Assembly: GCF_043290135.1 (NCBI RefSeq)
Contig: NC_134707.1
Location: 67,199,906 to 67,263,905, forward strand
Source of the DNA: Rhipicephalus microplus
Lineage: Eukaryota > Arthropoda > Arachnida > Ixodida > Ixodidae
Reading direction: 5' to 3'
Length of the DNA: 64,000 nucleotides
Numbering within the stretch: the first letter of the stretch is position 1; the number at the start of each line of letters is the position of its first letter. A program made the position numbers and the translations under genes. The notes under the pieces are model-generated. The model was not told the origin of the DNA and searched no databases. It saw nothing but the letters and a program-made list of their open reading frames with translations. Below are positions 1 to 64,000 of the stretch, in pieces.

Positions 1-177
1 ATAAGAGGGACAATTAATCATCTGCCCGCTCATAATAAGTTCACGTGCTACGTGACGCCAAAACATGCGAATAAGAGTGTTTTCACACTCGTTGTTTGGC
101 TTAAGGATGGCGCTGACTGTCACTCCTACTTCTAAATTCACATATAAACCCCAAAAAAAGTGTATGGAAGGACGGCC

Positions 178-250
178 GCTGTGATAGCTCAGTGGTTAAA
201 GCATCGAACGCGTTATTCGAAGGTCGTAGGTTCGATTCTTGCTCACAGCT
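178..250 (+). tRNA. tRNA-like gene, nominal Thr(CGT)
   Basis: G22A breaks the last D-stem pair; C62T gives a G-T wobble in the T stem. The flank reads GTGTATGGA, so the outer inverted repeat is broken. Confidence 0.6.
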
Positions 251-641
251 TGTAATTTTTTCATCCACTTTTCTTTCTTCTTTCTTCTTATTTACATTCG
301 ATTGGTTCTAATAACTTCCCCTGTACATTCCTTGGCATTACTGTCTGTTATATCTCAGTAATATTGTGTTAAACCACGGAAATACGAGCCCTTAGGTATA
401 CACTTCTCTCCCTTAATTCATTGAACGAGGGTCTCGTACTGGCAGACTTGGTGTGTTTAGGTTGTATAAGAGGGACAATTATTCAGCTGCCCGCTCATTA
501 TAAGTTCACGTGCTACTTGACGCCAAAACATGCGAATAAGAGTGTTTTCACACTCGTTGTTTGTCTTATAGATGGCGCTGACTGTCACTCCTACTTCTAA
601 ATTCACATATAGACCCCCAAAAAGTGGATGGAGGGACGGCC

Positions 642-714
642 GCTGTGATAGCTCAGTGGTTAGAGCTTCGAAGGCGTTATTCGAAGGTCGTAGGTTCGAT
701 TCCTGCTCACAGCT
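642..714 (+). tRNA. tRNA-like gene, nominal Thr(CGT)
   Basis: A26T and C32G; the loop is GGCGTTA. All stems are intact. Confidence 0.65.
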
Positions 715-1106
715 GGTAATTTTTTCATCCACTTTTCTTTCTTCTTTCTTCTTATTTACATTCCATTGGTTCTAATAACTTCCCCTGTACATTCCTTGGC
801 ATTACTGTCTGTTAAATCTCATTATTATTGTGTTAAAGCACGGAAATACGAGCCCTTAGGTATACACTTCTCTGCCTTATTTCATTGAATAAGGGTCTCG
901 TACTGGCAGACTTGGTGTGTTTAGGTTGTATAAGAGGGACAATTAATCAGCTGCCCGCTCATAATAAATTCACGTGCTACGTGACGCCAAAACATGCGAA
1001 TAAGAGTGTTTTCACACTCGTTGTTTGGCCTATAGATGGCGCTGACTGTCACTCCTACTTCTAAATTCACATATAAACCCCCCAAAAAGTGGATGGAGGG
1101 ACGGCC

Positions 1107-1179
1107 GCTGTGATAGCTCAGTGGTTAGAGCATCGAACGCGTTATTCGAAGGTCGTAGGTTCGATTCCTGCTAACAGCT
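1107..1179 (+). tRNA. tRNA-like gene, nominal Thr(CGT)
   Basis: C67A gives a G6-A67 mismatch in the acceptor stem. Confidence 0.6.
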
Positions 1180-1571
1180 GGTAATTTTTTCATCCACTTT
1201 TCTTTCTTCTTTCTTCTTATTTACATTCGATTGGTTCTAATAACTTCCCCTGTACATTCCTTGGCATTACTGTCTGTTATATCTCAGTAATATTGTGTTA
1301 AACCACGGAAAGACGAGCCCTTAGGTATACACTTCCCTCCCTTATTTCATTGAACGAGGGTCTCGTACTGGCAGACTTGGTGTGTTTAGGTTGTATAAGA
1401 GGGACAATTATTCAGCTGCCCGCTCATTATAAGTTCACCTGCTACGTGACGCCAAAACATGCGAATAAAAGTGTTTTCACACTCGTTGTTTGGCTTATAG
1501 ATGGCGCTGACTGTCACTCCTACTTCTAAATTCACATATAGACCCCCAGAAAAGTGGATGGAGGGACGGCC

Positions 1572-1644
1572 GCTGTGATAGCTCAGTGGTTAGAGCATCG
1601 AACGCGTTATTCGAAGGTCGTAAGTTCGATTCCATCTCACAGCT
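1572..1644 (+). pseudogene. tRNA-like copy with broken T arm
   Basis: G52A, T63A and G64T destroy three T-stem pairs and alter the first part of the B box. Confidence 0.6.
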
Positions 1645-2028
1645 GGTAATTTTTTCATCCACTTTTCTTTCTTCTTATATACATTCCATTGGTTCAAATA
1701 ACTTCCCCTGTACATTCCTTGGCATTACTGTCTGTTATATCTCAGTAATATTGTGTTAAACCACGGAAATACGAGCCCTTAGGTATACACTTCTCTCCCT
1801 TTTTTCATTGAACGAGGGTCTCGTACTGGCAGACTTGGTGTGTTTAGGTTGTATAAGAGGGACAATTAATCATCTGCCCGCTCATAATAAGTTCACGTGC
1901 TACGTGACGCCAAAACATGCGAATAAGAGTGTTCTCACACTCGTTGTTTGGCTTATAGATGGCGCTGACTGTCACTACTACTTCTAAATTCACATATAAA
2001 CCCCAAAAAAGTGGATGGAGGGACGGCC

Positions 2029-2101
2029 GCTGTGATAGCTCAGTGGTTAGAGCATCGAACGCGTTATTCGAAGGTCGTAGGTTCGATTCCTGCTCACAGC
2101 T
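2029..2101 (+). tRNA. tRNA-like gene, consensus
   Basis: First exact consensus copy in the window, in a short-class unit. Confidence 0.75.
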
Positions 2102-2487
2102 GGTAATTTTTTCATCCACTTTTCTTTCTTCTTATATACATTCCATTGATTCAAATAACTTCCCCTGTACATTTCTTGGCATTACTGTCTGTTATATCTC
2201 AGTAATATTGTGTTAAACCACGGAAATACGAGCCCTTATGTATACACTTCTCTCCCTTATTTCATTGAACGAGGGTCTCGTACTGGCAGACTTGGTGTGT
2301 TTAGGTTGTATAAGAGGGACAGTTAATCAGCTGCCCGCTCATAATAAGTTCACGTGCTACGTGACGCCAAAACATGCGAATAAGAGTGTTTTCACACTCG
2401 TTGTTTGGCTTATAGATGGCGCTGACTGTCACTCCTACTTCTAAATTCACATATAAACCCCCAAAAAAAGTGGATGGAGGGACGGCC

Positions 2488-2560
2488 GCTGTGATAGCTC
2501 AGTGGTTACAGCATCGAACGCGTTATTCGAAGGTCGTAGGTTCGATTCCTGCTCACAGCT
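2488..2560 (+). tRNA. tRNA-like gene, nominal Thr(CGT)
   Basis: G22C breaks one D-stem pair. Confidence 0.6.
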
Positions 2561-2952
2561 GGTAATTTTTTCATCCACTTTCCTTTCTTCTTTCTTCGTA
2601 TTTACATTCGATTGGTTCTAATAACTTCCCCTGTACATTCCTTGGCATTACTGTCTGTTAAATCTCATTAATATTGTGTTAAACCACGGAAATACGAGCC
2701 CTTAGGTATACACTTCTCTCCCTTATTTCAATGAACGATGGTCTCGTACTGGCAGACTTGGTGTGTTTAGGTTGTATAAGAGGGACAATTAATCAGCTGC
2801 CCGCTCATAATAGGTTCACGTGCTACGTGACGCCAAAACATGCGAATAAGAGTGTTTTCACACTCGTTGTTTGGCTTATAGATGGCGCTGACTGTCACTC
2901 CTACTTCTAAATTCACATATAAACCCCCAAAAAAGTGGATGGAGGGACGGCC

Positions 2953-3025
2953 GCTGTGATAGCTCAGTGGTTAGAGCATCGAACGCGTTATTCGAAGGTC
3001 GTAGGTTCGATTCCTGCTCACAGCT
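2953..3025 (+). tRNA. tRNA-like gene, consensus
   Basis: Exact consensus; the terminator is T5 (AATATTTTTC). Confidence 0.75.
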
Positions 3026-3419
3026 GGTAATATTTTTCATCCACTTTTCTTTCTTCTTTCTTCTTATTTACATTCCAATGGTTCTAATAACTTCCCCTGT
3101 ACATTCCTTGGCATTACTGTCTGTTAAATCTCATTAATATTGTGTTAAACCACGGAAATACGAGCCCTTAGGTATACACTTCTCTCCCTTATTTCATTGA
3201 ACGAGGGTCTCGTACTGGCAGACTTGGTGTGTTTAGGTTGTATAAGAGAGACAATTAATCAGCTGCCCGCTCATAATAAGTTCACGCGCTACGTGACGCC
3301 AAAACATGCGAATAAGAGTGTTTTCACACTCGTTGTTTGGCTTATAGATGGCGCTGACTGTCACTCCTACTTCTAAATTCACATATAGACCCCCAAAAAA
3401 AGTGGATGGAGGGACGGCC

Positions 3420-3492
3420 GCTGTGATAGCTCAGTGGTTAGAGCATCGAACGCGTTATTCGAAGGTCGTAGGTTCGATTCCTGCTCACAGCT
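3420..3492 (+). tRNA. tRNA-like gene, consensus
   Basis: Exact consensus with a T7 terminator. Confidence 0.75.
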
Positions 3493-3886
3493 GGTAATTT
3501 TTTTCATCCACTTTTCTTTCTTCTTTCTTCTTATTTACATTCCAATGGTTCTAATAACTTCCCCTGTACATTCCTTGGCATTACTGTCTGTTAAATCTCA
3601 TTAATATTGTGTTAAACCACGGAAATACGAGCCCTTAGGTATACACTTCTCTCCCTTATTTCATTGAATGAGGGTCTCGTACTGGCAGACTTGGTGTGTT
3701 TAGGTTGTATAAGAGGGACAATTAATCAGCTGCCCGCTCATAATAAGTTCACGTGCTACGTGACGCCAAAACATGCGAATAAGAGTGTTCTCACACTCGT
3801 TGTTTGGCTTAATAATGGCGCTGACTGTCACTCCTACTTCTAAATTCACATATAAACCCCCAAAAAAAGTGGATGGAGGGACGGCC

Positions 3887-3959
3887 GCTGTGATAGCTCA
3901 GTGGTTAGAGCATTGAACGCGTTATTTGAAGGTCGTAGGTTCGATTCCTGCTAACAGCT
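3887..3959 (+). tRNA. tRNA-like gene, nominal Thr(CGT)
   Basis: C28T and C41T leave two wobble pairs in the anticodon stem; C67A mismatches the acceptor stem. Confidence 0.5.
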
Positions 3960-4341
3960 GGTAATTTTTTCATTTTTCTTTCTTCTTATATACATTCCAT
4001 TGGTTCAAATAACTTCCCCTGTACATTCCTTGGCATTACTGTCTGTTATATCTCAGTAATATTGTGTTAAACCACGGAAATACGAGCCCTTAGGTATACA
4101 CTTCTCTCCCTTATTTCATTGAACGAGGGTCTCGTACTGGCAGACTTGGTGTGTTTAGGTTGTATAAGAGCGACAGTTAATCAGCTGCCCGCTCATAATA
4201 AGTTCACGTGCTACGTGACGCCAAAACATGCGAATAAGAGTGTTTTCACACTCGTTGTTTGGCTTATAGATGGCGCTGACTGTCACTCCTACTTCTAAAT
4301 TCACATATAAACCCCCAAAAAAAGTGGATGGAGGGACGGCC

Positions 4342-4414
4342 GCTGTGATAGCTCAGTGGTTAAAGCATCGAACGCGTTATTCGAAGGTCGTAGGTTCGAT
4401 TCCTGCTCACAGCT
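4342..4414 (+). tRNA. tRNA-like gene, nominal Thr(CGT)
   Basis: G22A only. Confidence 0.6.
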
Positions 4415-4805
4415 GGTAATTTTTTCATCCACTTTTCTTTTTTCTTTCTTCTTATTTACATTCCATTGGTTCTAATAACTTCCCCTGTACATTCCTTGGC
4501 ATTACTCTGTTATATCGCATTAATATTGTGTTAAACCACGGAAATACGAGCCCTTAGGTATACACTTCTCTCCCTTTTTTCATTGAACGAGGGTCTCGTA
4601 CTGGCAGACTTGGTGTGTTTAGGTTGTATAAGAGGGACAATTAATCAGCTTCCCGCTCATAATAAATTCACGTGCTACGTGACGCCAAAACATGCGAATA
4701 AGAGTGTTTTCACACTCGTTGTTTGGCTTATAGATGGCGCTGACTGTCACTCCTACTTCTAAATTCACATATAGACCCCCCAAAAAAGTGGATGGAGGGA
4801 CGGCC

Positions 4806-4878
4806 GCTGTGATAGCTCAGTGGTCAGAGCATCGAACGCTTTATTCGAAGGTCGTAGGTTCGATTCCTGCTCGCAGCT
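4806..4878 (+). tRNA. tRNA-like gene, nominal anticodon CTT
   Basis: G35T changes the nominal anticodon to CTT (Lys). It also has a D-loop T to C change and A68G (wobble). Confidence 0.55.
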
Positions 4879-5270
4879 GGTAATTTTTTCATCCACTTTT
4901 CTTTCTTCTTTCTCCTTATTTACAATCCATTGGTTCTAATAACTTCCCCTGTACATTCCTTGGCATTACTGTCTGTTAAATCTCATTAATATTGTGTTAA
5001 AGCACGGAAATACGAGCCCTTAGGTATACACTTCTCTGCCTTATTTCATTGATTAAGGGTCTCGTACTGGCAGACTTGGTGTGTTTAGGTTGTATAAGAG
5101 GGACAATTATTCAGCTGCCCGCTCATTATAAGTTCACGTGCTACGTGACGCCAAAACATGCGAATAAGAGTGTTTTCACACTCGTTGTTTGGCTTATAGA
5201 TGGCGCTGACTGTCACTCCTACTTCTAAATTCACATATAGACCCCCAGAAAAGTGGATGGAGGGACGGCC

Positions 5271-5343
5271 GCTGTGATAGCTCAGTGGTTAGAGCATCGA
5301 ACGCGTTATTCGAAGGTCGTAGGTTCGATTCCTGCTCACAGCT
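5271..5343 (+). tRNA. tRNA-like gene, consensus
   Basis: Exact consensus. Confidence 0.75.
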
Positions 5344-5728
5344 GGTAATTTTTTCATCCACTTTTCTTTCTTCTTATATACATTCCATTGGTTCAAATAA
5401 CTTCCCCTGTACATTCCTTGGCATTACTGTCTGTTATATCTCAGTAATATTGTGTTAAACCACGGAAATACGAGCCCTTAGGTATACACTTCTCTCCCTT
5501 ATTTCATTGAAGGAGGGTCTCGTACTGGCAGACTTGGTGTGTTTAGGTTGTATAAGAGGGACAGTTAATCAGCTGCCCGCTCATAATAAGTTCACGTGCT
5601 ACGTGACGCCAAAACATACGAATAAGAGTGTTCTCACACTCGTTGTTTGGCTTAAGGATGGCGCTGACTGTCACTCCTACTTCTAAATTCACATATAAAC
5701 CCCAAAAAAAGTGTATGGAAGGACGGCC

Positions 5729-5801
5729 GCTGTGATAGCTCAGTGGTTAAAGCATCGAACGCGTTATTCGAAGGTCGTAGGTTCGATTCCTGCTCACAGC
5801 T
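5729..5801 (+). tRNA. tRNA-like gene, nominal Thr(CGT)
   Basis: G22A; GTGTATGGA flank. Confidence 0.6.
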
Positions 5802-6194
5802 GGTAATTTTTTCATCCACTTTTCTTTTTTCTTTCTTCTTATTTACATTCCATTGGTTCTAATAACTTCCCCTGTACATTCCTTGGCATTACTGTCTGTT
5901 ATATCGCATTAATATTGTGTTAAACCACGGAAATACGAGCACTTAGGTATACACTTCTCTCCCTTTTTTCATTGAACGAGGGTCTCGTACTGGCAGACTT
6001 GGTGTGTTTAGGTTGTATAAGAGGGACAATTAATCAGCTGCCCGCTCATAATAAATTCACGTGCTACGTGACGCCAAAACATGCGAATAAGAGTGTTTTC
6101 ACACTCGTTGTTTGGCTTATAGATGGCGCTGACTGTCACTCCTACTTCTAAATTCACATATAGACCCCCCAAAAAAGTGGATGGAGGGACGGCC

Positions 6195-6267
6195 GCTGTG
6201 ATAGCACAGTGGTTAGAGCACCGAACGCGTTATTCGAAGGTCGTAGGTTCGATTCCTGCTAACAGCT
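6195..6267 (+). pseudogene. tRNA-like copy with several stem mismatches
   Basis: T12A, T27C and C67A give one mismatch each in the D, anticodon and acceptor stems. Confidence 0.55.
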
Positions 6268-6659
6268 GGTAATTTTTTCATCCACTTTTCTTTCTTCTTT
6301 CTTCTTATTTACATTCGATTGGTTCTAATAACTTCCCCTGTACATTCCTTGGCATTACTGTCTGTTATATCTCAGTAATATTGTGTTAAACCACGGAAAG
6401 ACGAGCCCTTAGGTATACACTTCCCTCCCTTATTTCATTGAACGAGGGTCTCGTACTGGCAGACTTGGTGTGTTTAGGTTGTATAAGAGGGACAATTATT
6501 CAGCTGCCCGCTCATTATAAGTTCACCTGCTACGTGACGCCAAAACATGCGAATAAAAGTGTTTTCACACTCGTTGTTTGGCTTATAGATGGCGCTGACT
6601 GTCACTCCTACTTCTAAATTCACATATAGACCCCCAGAAAAGTGGATGGAGGGACGGCC

Positions 6660-6732
6660 GCTGTGATAGCTCAGTGGTTAGAGCATCGAACGCGTTATTC
6701 GAAGGTCGTAAGTTCGATTCCATCTCACAGCT
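6660..6732 (+). pseudogene. tRNA-like copy with broken T arm
   Basis: Same G52A/T63A/G64T form as 1572. Confidence 0.6.
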
Positions 6733-7117
6733 GGTAATTTTTTCATCCACTTTTCTTTCTTCTTATATACATTCCATTGGTTCAAATAACTTCCCCTGTA
6801 CATTCCTTGGCATTACTGTCTGTTATATCTCAGTAATATTGTGTTAAACCACGGAAATACGAGCGCTTAGGTATACACTTCTCTCCCTTTTTTCATTGAA
6901 CGAGGGTCTCGTACTGGCAGACTTGGTGTGTTTAGGTTGTATAAGAGGGACAATTAATCATCTGCCCGCTCATAATAAGTTCACGTGCTACGTGACGCCA
7001 AAACATGCGAATAAGAGTGTTTTCACACTCGTTGTTTGGCTTAAGGATGGCGCTGACTGTCACTCCTACTTCTAAATTCACATATAAACCCCAAAAAAAG
7101 TGTATGGAAGGACGGCC

Positions 7118-7190
7118 GCTGTGATAGCTCAGTGGTTAAAGCATCGAACGCGTTATTCGAAGGTCGTAGGTTCGATTCTTGCTCACAGCT
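7118..7190 (+). tRNA. tRNA-like gene, nominal Thr(CGT)
   Basis: HOR partner of 178, same variants. Confidence 0.6.
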
Positions 7191-7581
7191 TGTAATTTTT
7201 TCATCCACTTTTCTTTCTTCTTTCTTCTTATTTACATTCGATTGGTTCTAATAACTTCCCCTGTACATTCCTTGGCATTACTGTCTGTTATATCTCAGTA
7301 ATATTGTGTTAAACCACGGAAATACGAGCCCTTAGGTATACACTTCTCTCCCTTAATTCATTGAACGAGGGTCTCGTACTGGCAGACTTGGTGTGTTTAG
7401 GTTGTATAAGAGGGACAATTATTCAGCTGCCCGCTCATTATAAGTTCACGTGCTACTTGACGCCAAAACATGCGAATAAGAGTGTTTTCACACTCGTTGT
7501 TTGTCTTATAGATGGCGCTGACTGTCACTCCTACTTCTAAATTCACATATAGACCCCCAAAAAGTGGATGGAGGGACGGCC

Positions 7582-7654
7582 GCTGTGATAGCTCAGTGGT
7601 TAGAGCTTCGAAGGCGTTATTCGAAGGTCGTAGGTTCGATTCCTGCTCACAGCT
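7582..7654 (+). tRNA. tRNA-like gene, nominal Thr(CGT)
   Basis: HOR partner of 642 (A26T, C32G). Confidence 0.65.
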
Positions 7655-8046
7655 GGTAATTTTTTCATCCACTTTTCTTTCTTCTTTCTTCTTATTTACA
7701 TTCCATTGGTTCTAATAACTTCCCCTGTACATTCCTTGGCATTACTGTCTGTTAAATCTCATTATTATTGTGTTAAAGCACGGAAATACGAGCCCTTAGG
7801 TATACACTTCTCTGCCTTATTTCATTGAATAAGGGTCTCGTACTGGCAGACTTGGTGTGTTTAGGTTGTATAAGAGGGACAATTAATCAGCTGCCCGCTC
7901 ATAATAAATTCACGTGCTACGTGACGCCAAAACATGCGAATAAGAGTGTTTTCACACTCGTTGTTTGGCCTATAGATGGCGCTGACTGTCACTCCTACTT
8001 CTAAATTCACATATAAACCCCCCAAAAAGTGGATGGAGGGACGGCC

Positions 8047-8119
8047 GCTGTGATAGCTCAGTGGTTAGAGCATCGAACGCGTTATTCGAAGGTCGTAGGT
8101 TCGATTCCTGCTAACAGCT
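8047..8119 (+). tRNA. tRNA-like gene, nominal Thr(CGT)
   Basis: HOR partner of 1107 (C67A). Confidence 0.6.
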
Positions 8120-8511
8120 GGTAATTTTTTCATCCACTTTTCTTTCTTCTTTCTTCTTATTTACATTCGATTGGTTCTAATAACTTCCCCTGTACATTCC
8201 TTGGCATTACTGTCTGTTATATCTCAGTAATATTGTGTTAAACCACGGAAAGACGAGCCCTTAGGTATACACTTCCCTCCCTTATTTCATTGAACGAGGG
8301 TCTCGTACTGGCAGACTTGGTGTGTTTAGGTTGTATAAGAGGGACAATTATTCAGCTGCCCGCTCATTATAAGTTCACCTGCTACGTGACGCCAAAACAT
8401 GCGAATAAAAGTGTTTTCACACTCGTTGTTTGGCTTATAGATGGCGCTGACTGTCACTCCTACTTCTAAATTCACATATAGACCCCCAGAAAAGTGGATG
8501 GAGGGACGGCC

Positions 8512-8584
8512 GCTGTGATAGCTCAGTGGTTAGAGCATCGAACGCGTTATTCGAAGGTCGTAAGTTCGATTCCATCTCACAGCT
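8512..8584 (+). pseudogene. tRNA-like copy with broken T arm
   Basis: HOR partner of 1572. Confidence 0.6.
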
Positions 8585-8968
8585 GGTAATTTTTTCATCC
8601 ACTTTTCTTTCTTCTTATATACATTCCATTGGTTCAAATAACTTCCCCTGTACATTCCTTGGCATTACTGTCTGTTATATCTCAGTAATATTGTGTTAAA
8701 CCACGGAAATACGAGCCCTTAGGTATACACTTCTCTCCCTTTTTTCATTGAACGAGGGTCTCGTACTGGCAGACTTGGTGTGTTTAGGTTGTATAAGAGG
8801 GACAATTAATCATCTGCCCGCTCATAATAAGTTCACGTGCTACGTGACGCCAAAACATGCGAATAAGAGTGTTCTCACACTCGTTGTTTGGCTTATAGAT
8901 GGCGCTGACTGTCACTACTACTTCTAAATTCACATATAAACCCCAAAAAAGTGGATGGAGGGACGGCC

Positions 8969-9041
8969 GCTGTGATAGCTCAGTGGTTAGAGCATCGAAC
9001 GCGTTATTCGAAGGTCGTAGGTTCGATTCCTGCTCACAGCT
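8969..9041 (+). tRNA. tRNA-like gene, consensus
   Basis: HOR partner of 2029. Confidence 0.75.
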
Positions 9042-9427
9042 GGTAATTTTTTCATCCACTTTTCTTTCTTCTTATATACATTCCATTGATTCAAATAACT
9101 TCCCCTGTACATTTCTTGGCATTACTGTCTGTTATATCTCAGTAATATTGTGTTAAACCACGGAAATACGAGCCCTTATGTATACACTTCTCTCCCTTAT
9201 TTCATTGAACGAGGGTCTCGTACTGGCAGACTTGGTGTGTTTAGGTTGTATAAGAGGGACAGTTAATCAGCTGCCCGCTCATAATAAGTTCACGTGCTAC
9301 GTGACGCCAAAACATGCGAATAAGAGTGTTTTCACACTCGTTGTTTGGCTTATAGATGGCGCTGACTGTCACTCCTACTTCTAAATTCACATATAAACCC
9401 CCAAAAAAAGTGGATGGAGGGACGGCC

Positions 9428-9500
9428 GCTGTGATAGCTCAGTGGTTACAGCATCGAACGCGTTATTCGAAGGTCGTAGGTTCGATTCCTGCTCACAGCT
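9428..9500 (+). tRNA. tRNA-like gene, nominal Thr(CGT)
   Basis: HOR partner of 2488 (G22C). Confidence 0.6.
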
Positions 9501-9892
9501 GGTAATTTTTTCATCCACTTTCCTTTCTTCTTTCTTCGTATTTACATTCGATTGGTTCTAATAACTTCCCCTGTACATTCCTTGGCATTACTGTCTGTTA
9601 AATCTCATTAATATTGTGTTAAACCACGGAAATACGAGCCCTTAGGTATACACTTCTCTCCCTTATTTCAATGAACGATGGTCTCGTACTGGCAGACTTG
9701 GTGTGTTTAGGTTGTATAAGAGGGACAATTAATCAGCTGCCCGCTCATAATAGGTTCACGTGCTACGTGACGCCAAAACATGCGAATAAGAGTGTTTTCA
9801 CACTCGTTGTTTGGCTTATAGATGGCGCTGACTGTCACTCCTACTTCTAAATTCACATATAAACCCCCAAAAAAGTGGATGGAGGGACGGCC

Positions 9893-9965
9893 GCTGTGAT
9901 AGCTCAGTGGTTAGAGCATCGAACGCGTTATTCGAAGGTCGTAGGTTCGATTCCTGCTCACAGCT
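9893..9965 (+). tRNA. tRNA-like gene, consensus
   Basis: HOR partner of 2953. Confidence 0.75.
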
Positions 9966-10359
9966 GGTAATATTTTTCATCCACTTTTCTTTCTTCTTTC
10001 TTCTTATTTACATTCCAATGGTTCTAATAACTTCCCCTGTACATTCCTTGGCATTACTGTCTGTTAAATCTCATTAATATTGTGTTAAACCACGGAAATA
10101 CGAGCCCTTAGGTATACACTTCTCTCCCTTATTTCATTGAACGAGGGTCTCGTACTGGCAGACTTGGTGTGTTTAGGTTGTATAAGAGAGACAATTAATC
10201 AGCTGCCCGCTCATAATAAGTTCACGCGCTACGTGACGCCAAAACATGCGAATAAGAGTGTTTTCACACTCGTTGTTTGGCTTATAGATGGCGCTGACTG
10301 TCACTCCTACTTCTAAATTCACATATAGACCCCCAAAAAAAGTGGATGGAGGGACGGCC

Positions 10360-10432
10360 GCTGTGATAGCTCAGTGGTTAGAGCATCGAACGCGTTATTC
10401 GAAGGTCGTAGGTTCGATTCCTGCTCACAGCT
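10360..10432 (+). tRNA. tRNA-like gene, consensus
   Basis: HOR partner of 3420. Confidence 0.75.
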
Positions 10433-10826
10433 GGTAATTTTTTTCATCCACTTTTCTTTCTTCTTTCTTCTTATTTACATTCCAATGGTTCTAATAACTT
10501 CCCCTGTACATTCCTTGGCATTACTGTCTGTTAAATCTCATTAATATTGTGTTAAACCACGGAAATACGAGCCCTTAGGTATACACTTCTCTCCCTTATT
10601 TCATTGAATGAGGGTCTCGTACTGGCAGACTTGGTGTGTTTAGGTTGTATAAGAGGGACAATTAATCAGCTGCCCGCTCATAATAAGTTCACGTGCTACG
10701 TGACGCCAAAACATGCGAATAAGAGTGTTCTCACACTCGTTGTTTGGCTTAATAATGGCGCTGACTGTCACTCCTACTTCTAAATTCACATATAAACCCC
10801 CAAAAAAAGTGGATGGAGGGACGGCC

Positions 10827-10899
10827 GCTGTGATAGCTCAGTGGTTAGAGCATTGAACGCGTTATTTGAAGGTCGTAGGTTCGATTCCTGCTAACAGCT
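10827..10899 (+). tRNA. tRNA-like gene, nominal Thr(CGT)
   Basis: HOR partner of 3887. Confidence 0.5.
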
Positions 10900-11281
10900 G
10901 GTAATTTTTTCATTTTTCTTTCTTCTTATATACATTCCATTGGTTCAAATAACTTCCCCTGTACATTCCTTGGCATTACTGTCTGTTATATCTCAGTAAT
11001 ATTGTGTTAAACCACGGAAATACGAGCCCTTAGGTATACACTTCTCTCCCTTATTTCATTGAACGAGGGTCTCGTACTGGCAGACTTGGTGTGTTTAGGT
11101 TGTATAAGAGCGACAGTTAATCAGCTGCCCGCTCATAATAAGTTCACGTGCTACGTGACGCCAAAACATGCGAATAAGAGTGTTTTCACACTCGTTGTTT
11201 GGCTTATAGATGGCGCTGACTGTCACTCCTACTTCTAAATTCACATATAAACCCCAAAAAAAAGTGGATGGAGGGACGGCC

Positions 11282-11354
11282 GCTGTGGTAGCTCAGTGGT
11301 TAAAGCATCGAACGCGTTATTCGAAGGTCGTAGGTTCGATTCCTGCTCACAGCT
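11282..11354 (+). tRNA. tRNA-like gene, nominal Thr(CGT)
   Basis: HOR partner of 4342, but with an added A7G (wobble at the base of the acceptor stem). Confidence 0.6.
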
Positions 11355-11744
11355 GGTAATTTTTTCATCCACTTTTTTTTTTCTTTCTTCTTATTTACAT
11401 TCCATTGGTTCTAATAACTTCCCCTGTACATTCCTTGGCATTACTCTGTTATATCGCATTAATATTGTGTTAAACCACGGAAATACGAGCCCTTAGGTAT
11501 ACACTTCTCTCCCTTTTTTCATTGAACGAGGGTCTCGTACTGGCAGACTTGGTGTGTTTAGGTTGTATAAGAGGGACAATTAATCAGCTTCCCGCTCATA
11601 ATAAATTCACGTGCTACGTGACGCCAAAACATGCGAATAAGAGTGTTTTCACACTCGTTGTTTGGCTTATAGATGGCGCTGACTGTCACTCCTACTTCTA
11701 AATTCACATATAGACCCCCCAAAAAAGTGGATGGAGGGACGGCC

Positions 11745-42839: not shown

Positions 42840-42911
42840 GCTGTGATAGATCAGTGGTTAGAGCATCGAACACGTTATTCGAAGGTCGTATTTCGATTCC
42901 TGCTCACAGCT
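42840..42911 (+). pseudogene. tRNA-like copy with T-stem deletion
   Basis: GATC/A33 type, 72 nt: one base is missing from the T stem, which breaks the B box. Confidence 0.55.
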
Positions 42912-48951: not shown

Positions 48952-49344
48952 GGTAATTTTTTCATCCACTTTTCTTTCTTCTTTTTTCTTATTTACACTC
49001 CATTGGTTCTAATAAGTTCCCCTGTACATTCCTTGGCATTACTGTCTGTTATATCTCATTAATATTGTGTTAAACCACGGAAATACGAGCCCTTAGGTAT
49101 ACACTTCTCTCCCTTTTTTCATTGAACGAGGGTCTCGTACTGGCAGACTTGGTGTGTTTAGGTTGTATAAGAGGGACAATTAATCAGCTGCCCGCTCATA
49201 ATAAATTCACGTGCTACGTGACGCCAAAACATGCCAATAAGAGTGTTTTCACACTCGTTGTTTGGCTTATAGATGGCGCTGACTGTCACTCCTAATTCTA
49301 AATTCACATATAAACCCCAAAAAAAAGTGGATGGAGGGACGGCC

Positions 49345-49417
49345 GCTGTGATAGCTCAGTGGTTAGAGCATCGAACACGTTATTCGAAGGTCGTAGGTTC
49401 GATTCCTGCTCACAGCT
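49345..49417 (+). tRNA. tRNA-like gene, A33 form
   Basis: G33A with an intact D arm. Confidence 0.65.
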
Positions 49418-49809
49418 GGTAATTTTTTCATCCACTTTTCTTTCTTCTTTCTCCTTATTTACATTCCATTGGTTCTAATAACTTCCCCTGTACATTCCTT
49501 GGCATTACTGTCTGTTATATCTCAGTAATATTGTGTTAAACCACGGAAAGACGAGCCCTTAGGTATACACTTCTCTCCCTTATTTCATTGAACGAGGGTC
49601 TCGTACTGGCAGACTTGGTGTGTTTAGGTTGTATAAGAGGGACAATTAATCTGCTGCCCGCTCATAATAAGTTCACGTGCTACGTGACGCCAAAACATTC
49701 GAATAAGAGTGTTTTCACAATCGTTGTTTGGCTTATAGATGGCACTGACTGTCACTCCTACTTCTAAATTCACACATAAACCCCCAAAAAAGTGGATGGA
49801 GGGACGGCC

Positions 49810-53406: not shown

Positions 53407-53425
53407 CGCCAAAACATGCGAATAA

Positions 53426-55928: not shown

Positions 55929-56320
55929 GGTAATTTTTTCATCCACTTTTCTTTCTTCTGTCTTCTTATTTACATTCCATTGGTTCTAATAACTTCCCCT
56001 GTACATTCCTTGGCATTACTGTCTGTTATATCTCATTAATATTGTGTTAAACCACGGAAATACGAGCCCTTAGGTATACACTTCTCTCACTTTTTTCATT
56101 GAACGAGGGTCTCGTACTGGCAGACTTGGTGTGTTTAGGTTGTATAAAAGGGACAATTGATCAGCTGCCCGCTCATAATAAGTTTACATGCTACGTGACG
56201 CCAAAACATGCGAATAAGAGTGTTTTCACACTCGTTGTTTGGCTTATAGATGGCGCTGACTGTCACTCCTACTTCTAAATTCACATATAAACCCCAAAAA
56301 AAGTGGATGGAGGGACGGCC

Positions 56321-56393
56321 GCTGTGATAGCTCAGCGGTTAGAGCATCGAACGCGTTATTCGAAGGTCGTAGGTTGGATTCCTGCTCACAGCT
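56321..56393 (+). pseudogene. tRNA-like copy, C56G subfamily
   Basis: Partner of 47950. Confidence 0.55.
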
Positions 56394-56784
56394 GGTAATT
56401 TTTTTATCCACTTTTCTTTCTTCTTTCTTCTTATTTACATTCCATTGGTTCTAATAACTTCCCCTGTACATTCCTTGGCATTACTGTCTGTTATATCTCA
56501 TTATTATGTGTTAAACCACGGAAATACGAGCCCTTAGGTATACACTTCTCTCCCTTAATTCATTGAACGAGGGTCTCGTACTGGCAGACTTGGTGTGTTT
56601 AGGTTGTATAAGAGGGACAATTAATCAGCTGCCCGCTCCTAATAAGTTCACGTGCTACGTGACTCCAAAACATGCGAATAAGAGTGTTTTCACACTCATT
56701 GTTTGGCTTATAGATGGCGCTGACTGTCACTCCTACTTCTAAATTCACATATAAACCCCAAAAAAAGTGGATGGAGGGACGGCC

Positions 56785-56857
56785 GCTGTGATAGCTCAGT
56801 GGTTAGAGCATCGAACGCGTTATTCGAAGGTCGTAGGTTCGATTTCTGCTCACAGCT
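56785..56857 (+). tRNA. tRNA-like gene, nominal Thr(CGT)
   Basis: Partner of 48414 (C61T). Confidence 0.6.
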
Positions 56858-57249
56858 GGTAATGTTTTCATCCACTTTTCTTTCTTATTTCTTCTTATTT
56901 ACATTCCATTGGTTCTAATAACTTACCCTGTACATTCATTGGCATTACTGTCTGTTATATCTGAGTAATATTGTGTTAAACCACGGAAATACGAGCCCTT
57001 AGGTGTACACTTCTCTCCCTTATTTCATTGAACGAGGGCCTCGTACTGGCAGACTCGGTGTGTTTAGGTTGTATAAGAAGGACAATTAATCAGCTGCCCG
57101 CTCATAATAAGTTCACGTGCTACGTGACGCCAAAACATGCGAATAAGAGTGTTTTCACACTCGTTGTTTGGCTTATAGATGGCACTGACTGTCACTCCTA
57201 CTTCTAAATTCACATATAAACCCCAAAAAAAGTGGATGGAGGGACGGCC

Positions 57250-57322
57250 GCTGTGACAGCTCAGTGGTTAGAGCATCGAACGCGTTATTCGAAGGTCGTA
57301 GGTTCGATTCCTGCTCACAGCT
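57250..57322 (+). tRNA. tRNA-like gene, nominal Thr(CGT)
   Basis: Partner of 48879 (T8C). Confidence 0.55.
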
Positions 57323-57715
57323 GGTAATTTTTTCATCCACTTTTCTTTCTTCTTTTTTCTTATTTACACTCCATTGGTTCTAATAAGTTCCCCTGTACAT
57401 TCCTTGGCATTACTGTCTGTTATATCTCATTAATATTGTGTTAAACCACGGAAATACGAGCCCTTAGGTATACACTTCTCTCCCTTTTTTCATTGAACGA
57501 GGGTCTCGTACTGGCAGACTTGGTGTGTTTAGGTTGTATAAGAGGGACAATTAATCAGCTGCCCGCTCATAATAAATTCACGTGCTACGTGACGCCAAAA
57601 CATGCCAATAAGAGTGTTTTCACACTCGTTGTTTGGCTTATAGATGGCGCTGACTGTCACTCCTAATTCTAAATTCACATATAAACCCCAAAAAAAAGTG
57701 GATGGAGGGACGGCC

Positions 57716-57788
57716 GCTGTGATAGCTCAGTGGTTAGAGCATCGAACACGTTATTCGAAGGTCGTAGGTTCGATTCCTGCTCACAGCT
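57716..57788 (+). tRNA. tRNA-like gene, A33 form
   Basis: Partner of 49345. Confidence 0.65.
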
Positions 57789-58180
57789 GGTAATTTTTTC
57801 ATCCACTTTTCTTTCTTCTTTCTCCTTATTTACATTCCATTGGTTCTAATAACTTCCCCTGTACATTCCTTGGCATTACTGTCTGTTATATCTCAGTAAT
57901 ATTGTGTTAAACCACGGAAAGACGAGCCCTTAGGTATACACTTCTCTCCCTTATTTCATTGAACGAGGGTCTCGTACTGGCAGACTTGGTGTGTTTAGGT
58001 TGTATAAGAGGGACAATTAATCTGCTGCCCGCTCATAATAAGTTCACGTGCTACGTGACGCCAAAACATGCGAATAAGAGTGTTTTCACAATCGTTGTTT
58101 GGCTTATAGATGGCACTGACTGTCACTCCTACTTCTAAATTCACACATAAACCCCCAAAAAAGTGGATGGAGGGACGGCC

Positions 58181-58253
58181 GCTGTGATAGCTCAGTGGTT
58201 GGAGCATCAAACGCGTTATTCGAAGGTCGTAGGTTCGATTCCTGCTCACAGCT
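58181..58253 (+). tRNA. tRNA-like gene, nominal Thr(CGT)
   Basis: Partner of 49810 (A21G, G29A). Confidence 0.5.
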
Positions 58254-58645
58254 GGTAATTTTTTCATCCACTTTTCTTTCTTCTTTCTCCTTATTTACAT
58301 TCCATTGGTTCTTATAACTTCCCCTGTACATTCCTTGGAATTACTGTCTGTTATATCTCAGTAATATTGTGTTAAACCACGGAAAGACGAGCCCTTAGGA
58401 ATACACTTCTCTCCCTTATTTCATTGAACGAGGGTCTCGTACTGGCAGACTTGGTGTGTTTAGGTTGTATAAGAGGGACAATTGATCAGCTGCCCGCTCA
58501 TAATAAGTTTACGTGCTACGTGACGCCAAAACATGCGAATAAGAGTGTTTTCACACTCGTTGTTTGGCTTATAGATGGCGCTGACTGTCACTCCTACTTC
58601 TAAATTCACATATAAACCCCAAAAAAAGTGGATGGAGGGACGGCC

Positions 58646-58718
58646 GCTGTGATAGCTCAGCGGTCAGAGCATCGAACGCGTTATTCGAAGGTCGTAGGTT
58701 GGATTCCTGCTCACAGCT
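58646..58718 (+). pseudogene. tRNA-like copy, C56G subfamily
   Basis: Partner of 50275. Confidence 0.55.
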
Positions 58719-59110
58719 GGTAATTTTTTCATCCACTTTTCTTTCTCCTTTCTTCTTATTTACATTCCATTGGTTCTAATAACTTCCCCTGTACATTCCT
58801 TGGCATTACTGTCTGTTATATCTCAGTAATATTGTGTTAAACCACGGAAATACGAGCCCTTAGGTATACACTTCTCTCCCTTATTTCATTGAACAAGGGT
58901 CTCGTACTGGCAGACTTGGTGTGTTTAGGTTGTATAAGAGGGACAATTAATCAGCTGCCCGCTCATAATAAGTTCACGTGCTACGTGACACCAAAACATG
59001 CGAATAAGAGTGTTTTCACACTCGTTGTTTGGCTTATAGATGGCACTGACTGTCACTCCTACTTCTAAATTCACATATAAACCCCAAAAAAAGTGGAGGG
59101 AGGGACGGCC

Positions 59111-59183
59111 GCTGTGATAGCTCAGTGGTTAAAGCATCGAACGCGTTATTCGAAGGTCGTAGGTTCGATTCCTGCTCACAGCT
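59111..59183 (+). tRNA. tRNA-like gene, nominal Thr(CGT)
   Basis: Partner of 50740 (G22A). Confidence 0.6.
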
Positions 59184-59575
59184 GGTAATTTTTTCATCCA
59201 CTTTTCTTTCTTCTTTCTTCTTATTTACACTCCATTGGTTCTAATAACTTCCCCTGTACATTCCTTGGCATTACTGTCTGTTATATCTCAGTAATATTGT
59301 GTTAAACCACGGAAATACGAGCCCTTAGGTATACACTTCTCTCCCTTATTTCATTGAACGAGGGTCTCGTACTGGCAGATTTGGTGTGTTTAGGTTGTAT
59401 AAGAGGGACAATTAATCAGCTGCCCGCTCATAATAAGTTCACGTGCTACGTGACGCCAAAACATGCGAATAAGAGTGTTTTCACAATCGTTGTTTGGCTT
59501 ATAGATGGCACTGACTGTCACTCCTACTTCTAAATTCACATATAAACCCCCAAAAAAGTGGATGGAGGGACGGCC

Positions 59576-59648
59576 GCTGTGATAGCTCAGTGGTTAGAGC
59601 ATCAAACGCGTTATTCGAAGGTCGTAGGTTCGATTCCTGCTCACAGCT
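59576..59648 (+). tRNA. tRNA-like gene, nominal Thr(CGT)
   Basis: Partner of 51205 (G29A). Confidence 0.6.
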
Positions 59649-60040
59649 GGTAATTTTTTCATCCACTTTTCTTTATTCTTTCTCCTTATTTACATTCCAT
59701 TGGTTCTTATAACTTCCCCTGTACATTCCTTGGAATTACTGTCTGTTATATCTCAGTAATATTGTGTTAAACCACGGAAAGACGAGCCCTTAGGTATACA
59801 CTTCTCTCTCTTATTTCATTGAACGAGGGTCTCGTACTGGCAGACTTGGTGTGTTTAGGTTGTATAAGAGGGACAATTGATCAGCTGCCCGCTCATAATA
59901 AGTTTACGTGCTACGTGACGCCAAAACATGCGAATAAGAGTGTTTTCACACTCGTTGTTTGGCTTATAGATGGCGCTGACTGTCACTCCTACTTCTAAAT
60001 TCACATATAAACCCCAAAAAAAGTGGATGGAGGGACGGCC

Positions 60041-60113
60041 GCTGTGATAGCTCAGCGGTCAGAGCATCGAACGCGTTATTCGAAGGTCGTAGGTTGGATT
60101 CCTGCTCACAGCT
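60041..60113 (+). pseudogene. tRNA-like copy, C56G subfamily
   Basis: Partner of 51670. Confidence 0.55.
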
Positions 60114-60504
60114 GGTAATTTTTTCATCCACTTTTCTTTCTCCTTTCTTCTTATTTACATTCCATTGGTTCTAATAACTTCCCCTGTACATTCCTTGGCA
60201 TTACTGTCTGTTATATCTCAGTAATATTGTGTTAAACCACGGAAATACGAGCCCTTAGGTATACACTTCTCTCCCTTATTTCATTGAACAAGGGTCTCGT
60301 ACTGGCAGACTTGGTGTGTTTAGGTTGTATAAGAGGGACAATTAATCAGCTGCCCGCTCATAATAAGTTCACGTGCTACGTGACACCAAAACATGCGAAT
60401 AAGAGTGTTTTCACTGTCGTTGTTTGGCTTATAGATGGCACTGACTGTCACTCCTACTTCTAAATTCACATATAAACCCCAAAAAAGTGGATGGAGGGAC
60501 GGCC

Positions 60505-60577
60505 GCTGTGATAGCTCAGTGGTTAGAGCATCAAACGCGTTATTCGAAGGTCGTAGGTTTGATTCCTGCTCACAGCT
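60505..60577 (+). tRNA. tRNA-like gene with altered B box
   Basis: Partner of 52134 (G29A, C56T). Confidence 0.5.
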
Positions 60578-60970
60578 GGTAATTTTTTCATCCACTTTTC
60601 TTTCTTCTTTCTTCTTATTTACATTCCATTGGATCTAATAACTTCCCCTGTACATTCCTTGGCATTACTGTTTTTTATATCTCATTAAAATTGTGTTAAA
60701 CCACGGAAATACGAGCCCTTAGGTATACACTTCTCTCCCTTATTTCATTGAACGAGGGTCTCCTACTGGCAGACTTGGTGTGTTTAGGTTGTATAAGAGG
60801 GACAATTGATCAGCTGCCCGCTCATAATAAGTTTACGTGCTACGTGACGCCAAAACATGCGAATAAGAGTGTTTTCACACTCGTTGTTTGGCTTATAGAT
60901 GGCGCTGACTGTCACTCCTACTTCTAAATTCACATATAAACCCCAAAAAAAAGTGGATGGAGGGACGGCC

Positions 60971-61043
60971 GCTGTGATAGCTCAGCGGTCAGAGCATCGA
61001 ACGCGTTATTCGAAGGTCGTAGGTTGGATTCCTGCTCACAGCT
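60971..61043 (+). pseudogene. tRNA-like copy, C56G subfamily
   Basis: Partner of 52600. Confidence 0.55.
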
Positions 61044-61434
61044 GGTAATTTTTTCATCCACTTTTCTTTGTCCTTTCTTCTTATTTACATTCCATTGGTT
61101 CTAATAACTTCCCCTGTACATTCCTTGGCATTACTGTCTGTTATATCTCAGTAATATTGTGTTAAACCACGGAAATACGAGCCCTTAGGTATACACTTCT
61201 CTCCCTTATTTAATTGAACAAGGGTCTCGTACTGGCAGACTTGGTGTGTTTAGGTTGTATAAGAGGGACAATTAATCAGCTGCCCGCTCATAATAAGTTC
61301 ACGTGCTACGTGACACCAAAACATGCGAATAAGAGTGTTTTCACACTCGTTGTTTGGCTTATAGATGGCACTGACTGTCACTCCTACTTCTAAATTCACA
61401 TATAAACCCCAAAAAAGTGGATGGAGGGACGGCC

Positions 61435-61507
61435 GCTGTGATAGCTCAGTGGTTAGAGCATCGAACGCGTTATTCGAAGGTCGTAGGTTCGATTCCTGCT
61501 CACAGCT
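61435..61507 (+). tRNA. tRNA-like gene, consensus
   Basis: Partner of 53064. Confidence 0.75.
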
Positions 61508-61901
61508 GGTAATTTTTTCATCCACTTTTCTTTCTTATTTCTTCTTATTTACATTCCATTTGTTCTAATAACTTCCCCTGTACATTCCTTGGCATTACTG
61601 TTTGTTATATCTCATTAAAATTGTGTTAAACCACGGAAATACGAGCCCTTAGGTATACACTTCTCTCCCTTATTTCATTGAACGAGGGTCTCCTACTGGC
61701 AGACTTGGTGTGTTTAGGTTGTATAAGAGGGACAATTAATCAGCTGCCCGCTCATAATAAGTTCACGTGCTACGTGACGCCAAAACATGCGAATAAGAGT
61801 GTTTTCACACTCGTTGTTTGGCTTATAGATGGCGCTGACTGTCACTCCTACTTCTAAATTCACATATAAACCCCCCAAAAAAAGTGGATGGAGGGACGGC
61901 C

Positions 61902-61974
61902 GCTGTGATAGCTCAGTGGTTAGAGCATCGAACGCGTTATTCGAAGGTCGTAGGTTCGATTCCTGCTCACAGCT
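61902..61974 (+). tRNA. tRNA-like gene, consensus
   Basis: Partner of 53531; last unit of the second 8,371-bp copy. Confidence 0.75.
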
Positions 61975-62365
61975 GGTAATTTTTTCATGCACTTTTCTTT
62001 CTTCTTTCTCCTTATTTACATTCCAATGGTTCTAATAACTTCCCCTGTACATTCCTTGGCATTACTGTCTGTTATATCTCAGTAATATTGTGTTAAACCA
62101 CGGAAATACGAGCCCTTAGGTATACACTTCTCTCCCTTATTTCATTGAACGAGGGTCTCGTACTGGCAGACTTGGTGTGTTTAGGTTGTATAAGAGGGAC
62201 AATTAATCAGCTGCCCGCTCATAATAAGTTCACGTGCTACGTGACGCCAAAACATGCGAATAAGAGTGTTTTCACAATCGTTGTTTGGCTTATAGATGGC
62301 ACTGACTGTCATCCTACTTCTAAATTCACATATAAACCCCCAAAAAAGTGGATGGAGGGACGGCC

Positions 62366-62438
62366 GCTGTGATAGCTCAGTAGTTAGAGCATCGAACGCG
62401 TTATTCGAAGGTCGTAGGTTTGATTCCTGCTCACAGCT
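62366..62438 (+). tRNA. tRNA-like gene with altered B box
   Basis: G18A and C56T. Confidence 0.5.
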
Positions 62439-62829
62439 GGTAATTTTTTCATCCACTTTTCTTTCTTCTTTCTCCTTATTTACATTCCATTGGTTCTAAT
62501 AACTTCCCCTGTACATTCCTTGGCATTACTGTCTGTTATATCTCAGTACTATTGTGTTAAACCACGGAAAGACGAGCCCTTAGGTATACACTTCTCGCCC
62601 TTATTTCATTGAACGAGGGTCTCGTACTGGCAGACTTGGTGTGTTTAGGTTGTATAAGAGGGACAATTGATTAGCTGCCCGCTCATAATAAGTTTACGTG
62701 CTACGTGACGCCAAAACATGCGAGTAAGAGTGTTTTCACACTCGTTGTTTGGCTTATAGATGGCGCTGACTGTCACTCCTACTTCTAAATTCACGTATAA
62801 ACCCCAAAAAAGTGGATGGAGGGACGGCC

Positions 62830-62902
62830 GCTGTGATAGCTCAGTGGTTAGAGCATCGAACGCGTTATTCGAAGGTCGTAGGTTCGATTCCTGCTCACAG
62901 CT
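62830..62902 (+). tRNA. tRNA-like gene, consensus
   Basis: Exact consensus. Confidence 0.75.
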
Positions 62903-63258
62903 GGTAATTTTTTCATCCACTTTTCTTTCTTCTTTCTCCTTATTTACATTCCATTGGTTCTAATAACTTCCCCTGTACATTCCTTGGCATTACTGTCTGT
63001 TATATCTCAGTAATATTGTGTTAAACCACGGAAATAACGGCCCTTAGGTATACACTTCTCTCCCTTATTTCATTGAACGAGGGTCTCGTACTGGCAGACT
63101 TGGTGTGTTTAGGTTGTATAAGAGGGACAATTAATCAGCTGCCCGCTCATAATAAGTTCACGTGCTACGTGACGCCAAAACATGCGAATAAGAGTGTTTT
63201 CACAATCGTTGTTTGGCTTATAGATGGCACTGACTGTCACTCCTACTTCTAAATTCAC

Positions 63259-63265
63259 ATATAAA
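63259..63265 (+). promoter_or_regulatory. TATA-like element upstream of tRNA-like gene
   Basis: ATATAAA ends 30 bp before the first tRNA base. Nearly every unit has this or the ATATAGA variant at the same distance. Upstream TATA-like boxes assist TFIIIB placement in several eukaryotes. The functional role here is inferred. Confidence 0.45.
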
Positions 63266-63301
63266 CCCCCAAAAAAGTGGATGGAGGGACGGCCGCTGTG
63301 A

Positions 63302-63312
63302 TAGCTCAGTGG
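63302..63312 (+). promoter_or_regulatory. A box (internal Pol III promoter)
   Basis: TAGCTCAGTGG matches the TRGYNNARNNG consensus at tRNA positions 8-19. The GATC subfamily (C11A) and the GTCATTA subfamily (G18C, G19A) deviate at key bases. Confidence 0.8.
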
Positions 63313-63345
63313 TTAGAGCATCGAACGCGTTATTCGAAGGTCGTA

Positions 63346-63356
63346 GGTTCGATTCC
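63346..63356 (+). promoter_or_regulatory. B box (internal Pol III promoter)
   Basis: GGTTCGATTCC is a perfect match to the GGTTCGANTCC consensus, 33 bp after the end of the A box, a normal tRNA-gene spacing. Confidence 0.85.
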
Positions 63357-63372
63357 TGCTCACAGCTGGTAA

Positions 63373-63378
63373 TTTTTT
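63373..63378 (+). terminator. Pol III terminator (T6)
   Basis: Six T residues on the coding strand begin 5 nt after the discriminator base. Across the array the run varies from T4 (TGTTTTC units) to T8. Only the unit at 63760 has it split to TTTATT. Confidence 0.8.
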
Positions 63379-63384
63379 CATCCA

Positions 63385-63406
63385 CTTTTCTTTCTTCTTT
63401 CTTCTT
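63385..63406 (+). repeat. Pure pyrimidine tract
   Basis: Twenty-two consecutive C/T residues follow the terminator. An 8-bp deletion inside it (followed by TATATACA) makes the short monomer class. Confidence 0.7.
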
Positions 63407-63759
63407 ATTTACATTCCATTGGTTCTAATAACTTCCCTTGTACATTCCTTGGCATTACTGTCTGTTATATCTCATTAATATTGTGTTAAACCACGGAAAT
63501 ACGAGCCCTTAGGTATACACTTCTCTCCCTTTTTTCATTGAACGAGGGTCTCGTACTGGCAGACTTGGTGTGTTTAGGTTGTATAAGAGGGACAATTAAT
63601 CAGCTGCCCGCTCATAATAAATTCACGTGCTACGTGACGCCAAAACATGCGAATAAGAGTGTTTTCACACTCGTTGTTTGGCTTATAGATGGCGCTGACT
63701 GTCACTCCTACTTCTAAATTCACATATAGACCCCTAAAAAAGGAGATGGAGGGACGGCC

Positions 63760-63832
63760 GCTGTGATAGCTCAGTGGTTAGAGCATCGAACAAGTTATTT
63801 GAAGGTCGTAGGTTCGATTCCTGCTCACAGCT
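63760..63832 (+). tRNA. tRNA-like gene, nominal anticodon AGT
   Basis: G33A, C34A and C41T make the loop CAAGTTA, nominal anticodon AGT (also Thr). The terminator run is broken (TTTATT). Confidence 0.5.
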
Positions 63833-64000
63833 GGTAATTTATTCATCCACTTTTCTTTCTTCTTTCTCCTTATTTACATTCCATTGGTTCTAATAACTTC
63901 CCCTGTACATTCCTTGGCATTACTGTCTGTTATATCTCAGTAATATTGTGTTAAACCACGGAAAGACGAGCCTTTAGGTATACACTTCTCTCCCTTATTT

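Follow-up and report, generated by a model that had tools for sequence, protein, structure and literature searches.

The window analysed here, a stretch of 64,000 bp from the tick Rhipicephalus microplus (contig C8, positions 67,199,906-67,263,905, in a genome of 3.26 Gb and 1202 contigs), is a single tandem array in its entirety (one row in Tandem Repeats Finder, with a period of 465, 137.9 copies and 95% matches), and each of its units carries a tRNA-shaped gene. On balance, we consider it probable that this satellite arose from a non-autonomous, retrozyme-like tandem element with a tRNA cassette, probably mobilised by Penelope-like elements (PLEs), of which one locus was amplified. We show where the dispersed copies of the unit end, how they are built and that they target (AT)n microsatellites. 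The dispersed units share this target, two classes of ends, a tail on one arm and a tandem or head-to-head arrangement of copies with the PLEs, and it is this set of shared traits that leads us to a PLE-driven reading. The origin of satellites has mostly been guesswork so far; because the unit, its dispersed copies and the likely source of the enzyme are found in one genome, the step from retroelement to satellite becomes testable.

Dispersed copies of the unit

The window has 137 occurrences of a 41-base unit motif that lies outside the tRNA (up to three mismatches allowed); across the genome, on many contigs, there are 918 in forward and 575 in reverse orientation, with no occurrence of the reversed control. 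We fetched 20 of at least 26 motif clusters outside C8, two short arrays (on C7 and C10) and 8 further loci from 100 listed of 276 places with the 3' junction pattern. The analysis of ends covers these 30 loci, leaving out BLAST matches below 88% identity and ends at locus edges or beside N. The unit is found there as single, tandem and head-to-head copies within (AT)n microsatellites, in chains whose length ranges from 0.05 to at least 16 units. Diverged relatives of the unit, mostly about 70-85% alike, accompany it in several of these loci, and three of them (in L020, L023 and L024) keep tRNA scores of 33-38 bits.

The outer ends of these copies fall mainly into two classes, about 58 nt apart in the unit, to which 46 of the 52 ends placed belong: 31 lie at consensus positions 414-421 and 15 at 353-369, with 6 elsewhere. 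In the 22 loci that had not been selected by their 3' end, the corresponding numbers are 22, 12 and 5 (39 ends). Ends of both main classes continue into (AT)n, a few of them with a short different start, and the 5' side of the simple copies that were read is likewise (AT)n, with the exception of L066, where it is just the short TATATATA. Across the genome, 276 exact junctions lead from consensus 416 into (AT)n (control, 0). The tRNA is central in the unit, and the dispersed copies also carry sequence upstream of it. The positions of the two end classes can be located in the window as follows, and at 49583 the next part of the tandem unit follows there, in contrast to the (AT)n of the dispersed copies.

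1..64000, + strand: tandem array of 138 units of about 465 bp, part of an array of about 379 kb
49520..49525, + strand: position of one outer-end class, consensus ~353-358 (15 of 52 ends at 353-369)
49583..49583, + strand: position of the main outer-end class, consensus 416 (31 of 52 ends at 414-421)

Among the head-to-head pairs for which both outer ends could be placed, 13 of 15 combine one end of each class (L012, L013, L016, L017, L019, L020, L021, L026, L028, L029, L068, L071 and L073). For the pair in L016, one arm was joined across an insert of about 634 bp before counting, and L012 has one further head-to-head pair that runs off the edge of the locus.

Some individual loci show additional features. 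The insert in L016 (4436-5069) is unrelated sequence that breaks the arm at the T-run of a unit. A short inverted arm in L067 (1102-1123) stops in the T-run behind the tRNA (consensus 261), a single case whose end resembles the expected copy of a terminated RNA polymerase III (Pol III) transcript. In L022 (3974-5229), an insert that looks like a long interspersed nuclear element (LINE), with an A-run at its end, interrupts the tRNA gene of a single unit; on both sides the insert is bordered by a 14-bp repeat, GCTGTGATAGCTCA, which belongs to the tRNA gene (one case). Copies in (AT)n lie near frames that by eye are of Gypsy-type gag or pol in L011, L012, L023, L025 and L027; a Gypsy-type query from a flanking transposon gave named protein matches in Rhipicephalus sanguineus (62% over 90%) and R. 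microplus (70% over 44%).

Penelope-like elements of the genome

A PLE fragment situated beside one unit copy (L023) returned, as a query, 150 scored matches of 6117 candidates, and an open frame of 911 aa is present in 24 of these 150 rows, in one case containing a stop. PLE neighbours within 10 kb of each other (n = 27) are mostly head-to-head (23) and otherwise tandem (4), with none tail-to-tail. Genome-wide, 1136 occurrences of the end motif of the PLE family were counted. With a flexible-gap pattern, (AT)4 follows within 10 nt after 29 of the 74 end motifs among the listed places on C1 up to 139.3 Mb, and neighbours within 6 kb among those 74 places (n = 18) comprise 12 head-to-head, 5 tandem and 1 tail-to-tail. 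A single PLE end, in L075, was read directly into (AT)n; two end sequences from this locus, the second classed as PLE-like by eye only, match 6 of 32 loci (L019, L020, L022, L023, L064 and L067). At the protein level, a PLE fragment matches an Ixodes hexagonus protein (42% over 85%), and a related tick protein of 295 aa has a weak GIY-YIG match (E 0.013, below the Pfam cut-off). One PLE fragment had no relatives in the search, and we took its structure matches to designed repeat proteins to be spurious.

These patterns may be set against what is described for PLEs elsewhere. According to the available part of a report on PLEs in vitro, reverse transcription begins at two adjacent sites inside the RNA, and the stretch between them constitutes an optional "tail" of the copies found in genomes. 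Cleavage and extension affect both strands of the DNA, AT-rich sequence is the target, and a multi-copy RNA has been proposed as template (PMC11167929). For rotifer PLEs, the accessible text of a further report describes inverted pseudo-long terminal repeats (pLTRs), with the tail optionally at one of them (PMC3846280).

In the tick genome, PLE end motifs repeatedly form close head-to-head pairs with a spacing of about 130-145 bp, as if solo inverted pLTR pairs were common; examples are C1:16457088(-)/16457231(+) and C1:21675987(-)/21676124(+). By eye, a hammerhead-like core (CTGATGA ... GAAAC) can be recognised in a PLE-like end at L075:1278-1304 and 1513-1575; Rfam lists no hammerhead in PLE ends, and the pattern scan does not list the L075 core either.

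The tRNA-shaped gene in each unit

The initial annotation had described every monomer of the satellite as a complete Pol III tRNA gene, and as far as the shape of the gene is concerned this is borne out. A fuzzy scan located 138 units in the window, all in one orientation, and all 138 match Rfam RF00005 on the + strand with 31.5-63.7 bits, the gathering score of 29 bits being the threshold for this count. ARAGORN predicts 137 tRNA genes; the unit that it misses, at 42840, scores lowest in Rfam. A T-run of at least 4 directly behind the gene is present in all 138 units, a TATA-like hexamer (TATAAA, TATATA or TATAGA) about 35 bp upstream in 131, acceptor arms GCTGTGA/TCACAGC in 118, an A box in 113 (by a pattern of our own making) and the exact B box GGTTCGANTCC in 97. 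At minimum energy, the tRNA part of the consensus folds into a cloverleaf, and the covariance scores of consensus-like copies are not low, at 61.1 bits compared with up to 75.3 bits for normal-looking tRNA-Thr genes of the same genome. In one example unit, these elements are placed as follows; the boxes, hexamer and T-run were read in the sequence.

49309..49314, + strand: TATA-like hexamer
49345..49417, + strand: tRNA-shaped gene (61.3 bits)
49352..49362, + strand: A box TAGCTCAGTGG
49376..49382, + strand: anticodon loop CACGTTA (position 33 is A here, G in most units)
49396..49406, + strand: B box GGTTCGATTCC
49423..49428, + strand: T-run, terminator-like

In the decoding sense, the description as a complete tRNA gene is not supported. 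T at position 33 is present in 0 of the 138 units. To our knowledge, this base (U33) is universal in decoding tRNAs. The anticodon loop CGCGTTA, found in 110 of 138 units, is not a normal anticodon loop, and the Thr-CGT label of the gene depends on it. The array shows no sign of constraint on the tRNA part, which ranks 361 of 392 sliding windows when these are ordered from low to high diversity (109 distinct sequences in 137 full units). CpG sites account for part of this diversity; outside CpG, the tRNA part and the rest of the unit are equal (0.0372 vs 0.0349). Because T33 is missing throughout and the tRNA part is unconstrained, we reject a decoding tRNA, and judging from the sequence the gene is probably a tRNA-shaped Pol III cassette. 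The contrast that had been drawn with tRNA-derived short interspersed nuclear elements (SINEs), which usually lack an intact 3' acceptor arm and a terminator right behind it, is incomplete: the unit itself forms a dispersed retroelement-like family, invisible from the window alone.

Extent and internal history of the array

On C8, the array begins between 66,976,000 (L061, which has no unit) and 66,977,346 (the first motif among the matches listed) and ends on the right at 67,355,959, an extent of about 379 kb for an array that was read in parts. The window contains neither (AT)6 nor any stop-free frame of more than 120 codons, and a scan for viral contigs gave 0. Units 1-9 recur unchanged as units 16-24, and of the 16 units numbered 100-115, 14 have an exact copy 18 places further on: the array has undergone recent block duplication.

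1..11400 (both ends approximate), + strand: recent block duplication, units 1-9 identical to units 16-24 (unit starts)

Two short motifs recur along the array. CACGTG lies at consensus 42 (42-47), with 117 occurrences in the window, and the GATGGCGC core at consensus 106 (106-113), with 106 occurrences; the latter resembles insect CTCF sites.

Origin of the satellite

In the scenario that we propose, tandem units would be read through into a multi-unit RNA. A reverse transcriptase, most likely that of the PLEs of this genome, would open (AT)n microsatellites and begin reverse transcription at two favoured sites within the unit, close to consensus 358 and 416. The copies left behind, flanked by (AT)n, would be tandem, truncated on the 5' side or head-to-head, and we infer that both DNA strands are cut at these insertions. 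At C8, one tandem insert may have grown into the array of about 379 kb. The tRNA cassette would probably be an internal promoter of the element, or a module that processes or protects its RNA, rather than serve in decoding.

Several observations weigh against this scenario. At the right end of the array, the sole edge that was read, other sequence takes over without (AT)n, so the array itself gives no display of insertion into (AT)n. We found no convincing homology between the unit and the PLE flanks read, and since no sequence is shared there we infer the enzyme from target, architecture and start pattern alone. The PLE label of the fragments itself depends partly on motifs presumed to be diagnostic, and in three PLE fragments no Pfam family reached the curated threshold. 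Following (AT)4 is lacking at 45 of the 74 PLE end motifs, some of which may be internal pLTRs, and a PLE pattern with a fixed gap of 4 nt is found at just 7 places. Among the dispersed units, 6 of 52 outer ends lie outside both classes, and the head-to-head pairs in L022 (ends at 406 and 416) and L067 (261 and 416) do not fit the two-class rule. The likeness to known retrozymes is also limited: a ribozyme-bearing retrozyme was rejected, because no ribozyme was found in the unit: for two units, Rfam gives no ribozyme family at E up to 10, and the hammerhead motif CTGANGA is absent from both strands of the unit consensus. Rfam rows below the gathering score (plastid, miRNA and similar) were put down to chance or to the opposite strand of the tRNA.

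The alternative to be taken most seriously, although we regard it as unlikely, is that a LINE-dependent, tRNA-related SINE family turned tandem and then became a satellite, its head-to-head copies having been formed by ordinary twin priming. Variable 5' cuts and a preferred 3' end are what the dispersed copies show, head-to-head arms do also arise by twin priming, and the SINE-derived satellites of squamates provide a precedent, as described in the available text of PMC10702118. However, the tRNA lies mid-unit and does not form a 5' head, and the copies extend upstream of it and past the T-run to consensus 416. Because copies reach beyond the tRNA on both sides, their template cannot have been a Pol III transcript of the tRNA gene. 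Multi-unit inserts, two end classes and pairs in which both arms copy the same part of the unit (L013, L020) would likewise be atypical of a SINE. Spread at the DNA level, with satellite fragments or circles captured at (AT)n breaks through microhomology, would explain why junctions often share AT with the unit and why AT-matched 5'-cut junctions are about as common inside as outside the tRNA (33 vs 31 places); two preferred outer ends, one of each in 13 of 15 pairs, are not expected from such capture, and we hold it to be very improbable.

The remaining alternatives look to the array rather than to its dispersed copies. A structural satellite, kept for its Pol III sites as an insulator, fork barrier, TFIIIC or centromere platform, would suit the length of the array, its regular Pol III-like boxes and the GATGGCGC core, with its presumed CTCF likeness, 106 times in the window. 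Such a role would be compatible with the origin that we favour, yet the tRNA part is without constraint, and the co-existing dispersed mobile form accounts for the tRNA without any role in chromatin; we consider this reading improbable. Least probable of all, in our view to the point of being hardly credible, is a cluster of working tRNA genes amplified for dosage, as in tandem tRNA arrays elsewhere. The intact cloverleaf, the promoter-like boxes and the T-run would agree with it, and a normal-looking tRNA-Thr tandem array does exist on C4, but none of the 138 units has T33, and conservation of the tRNA part does not exceed that of the sequence around it (rank 361 of 392). The best-scored matches to the C4 array span 107,956,494-108,169,750. 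In the part of it that was fetched (L065, C4:107963000-107967999), the tandem units are about 190 bp long and ARAGORN finds 14 genes, 13 Thr and one Met, with 41.7-75.3 bits; read by eye, the Thr genes have the loops CTCGTAA or CTTGTAA with T33 present, and they look like normal tRNA-Thr genes (CGT and TGT).

Returning to an origin from a PLE-mobilised tandem element, a stronger version of it can be formulated, in which a satellite-seeding "tRNA retrozyme" carries a tRNA gene in place of the hammerhead, and RNase P, RNase Z and tRNA ligase would take over from self-cleavage and cut, close or protect its RNA. We regard this version as doubtful, and the processing of a multi-unit RNA by these host enzymes is pure speculation on our part. 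We had also entertained a methylated A of the T-loop as a stop for reverse transcription. The 5' ends at the loci examined do pile up within the tRNA: 16 of 48 lie at consensus 203-250 (p 0.001 by a scan test with 1000 simulations), an interval picked after viewing the data, and some of the 48 are edges of nested inserts. Over the whole genome, a 13-nt window in the tRNA has 33 distinct junction places (87 raw) versus 31 (66 raw) in an AT-matched control, for most places of which the matched letters were unseen. As the control window is about equally rich in junctions, the idea was abandoned.

If the proposed origin is true, Penelope reverse transcriptases can mobilise tandem RNAs without a ribozyme. 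With its two preferred start points and one kind of target, the unit offers a simple substrate with which this may be tested.

Comparison with known systems

A search of the literature, covering titles and the openings of abstracts and lying mostly outside subscription papers, returned nothing on this repeat or on tRNA-bearing PLE elements. The closest parallels among satellites are the PolIII/TAN ("Hirt") repeat of the newt Cynops pyrrhogaster and OAX / satellite I of Xenopus, both treated in the available text of PMC10702118. The former is likewise tandem, tRNA-like and of similar size (~360 nt), and it can be transcribed in vitro; it belongs to another lineage, and a PLE-type dispersed form goes unmentioned in that text (PMC10702118). 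The latter is a tRNA-bearing tandem repeat with a longer unit than that of the tick, and its relation to mobile elements is called unconfirmed in the same source (PMC10702118). The likeness that we draw to both is one of kind, namely a long array with a tRNA-like segment in each unit.

SINE-based systems are comparable in a different respect. The satellites of squamates also stem from tRNA-related retroelements, but as far as the available text describes them their units are pieces of a SINE, that of a snake being 67 nt long and comprising part of the head only (PMC10702118). Ticks themselves possess the Ruka SINE, which is likewise a tRNA-like Pol III element; by its description in the accessible part of PMC3160391, Ruka is set apart from our unit in being about 180-195 bp long, serine-tRNA-like and interspersed.

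In their organisation, the animal retrozymes come close to the tick unit, since they too are non-autonomous retroelements made of short tandem repeats (150-450 bp, from dimers to large multimers); according to the part of PMC7229834 available, they carry type I hammerhead ribozymes and yield circular RNA, whereas the tick unit has a tRNA cassette instead. With PLEs of the Penelope/Poseidon type, as portrayed in the available portions of PMC11167929 and PMC3846280, the unit shares AT-rich targets, tandem and head-to-head copies, two start points and an optional tail. PLEs encode a reverse transcriptase and a GIY-YIG endonuclease, whereas the tick unit encodes nothing. Satellites bearing tRNA sequences are already known, and what is added here is their combination with retrozyme-like tandem traits and a PLE-type mode of insertion.

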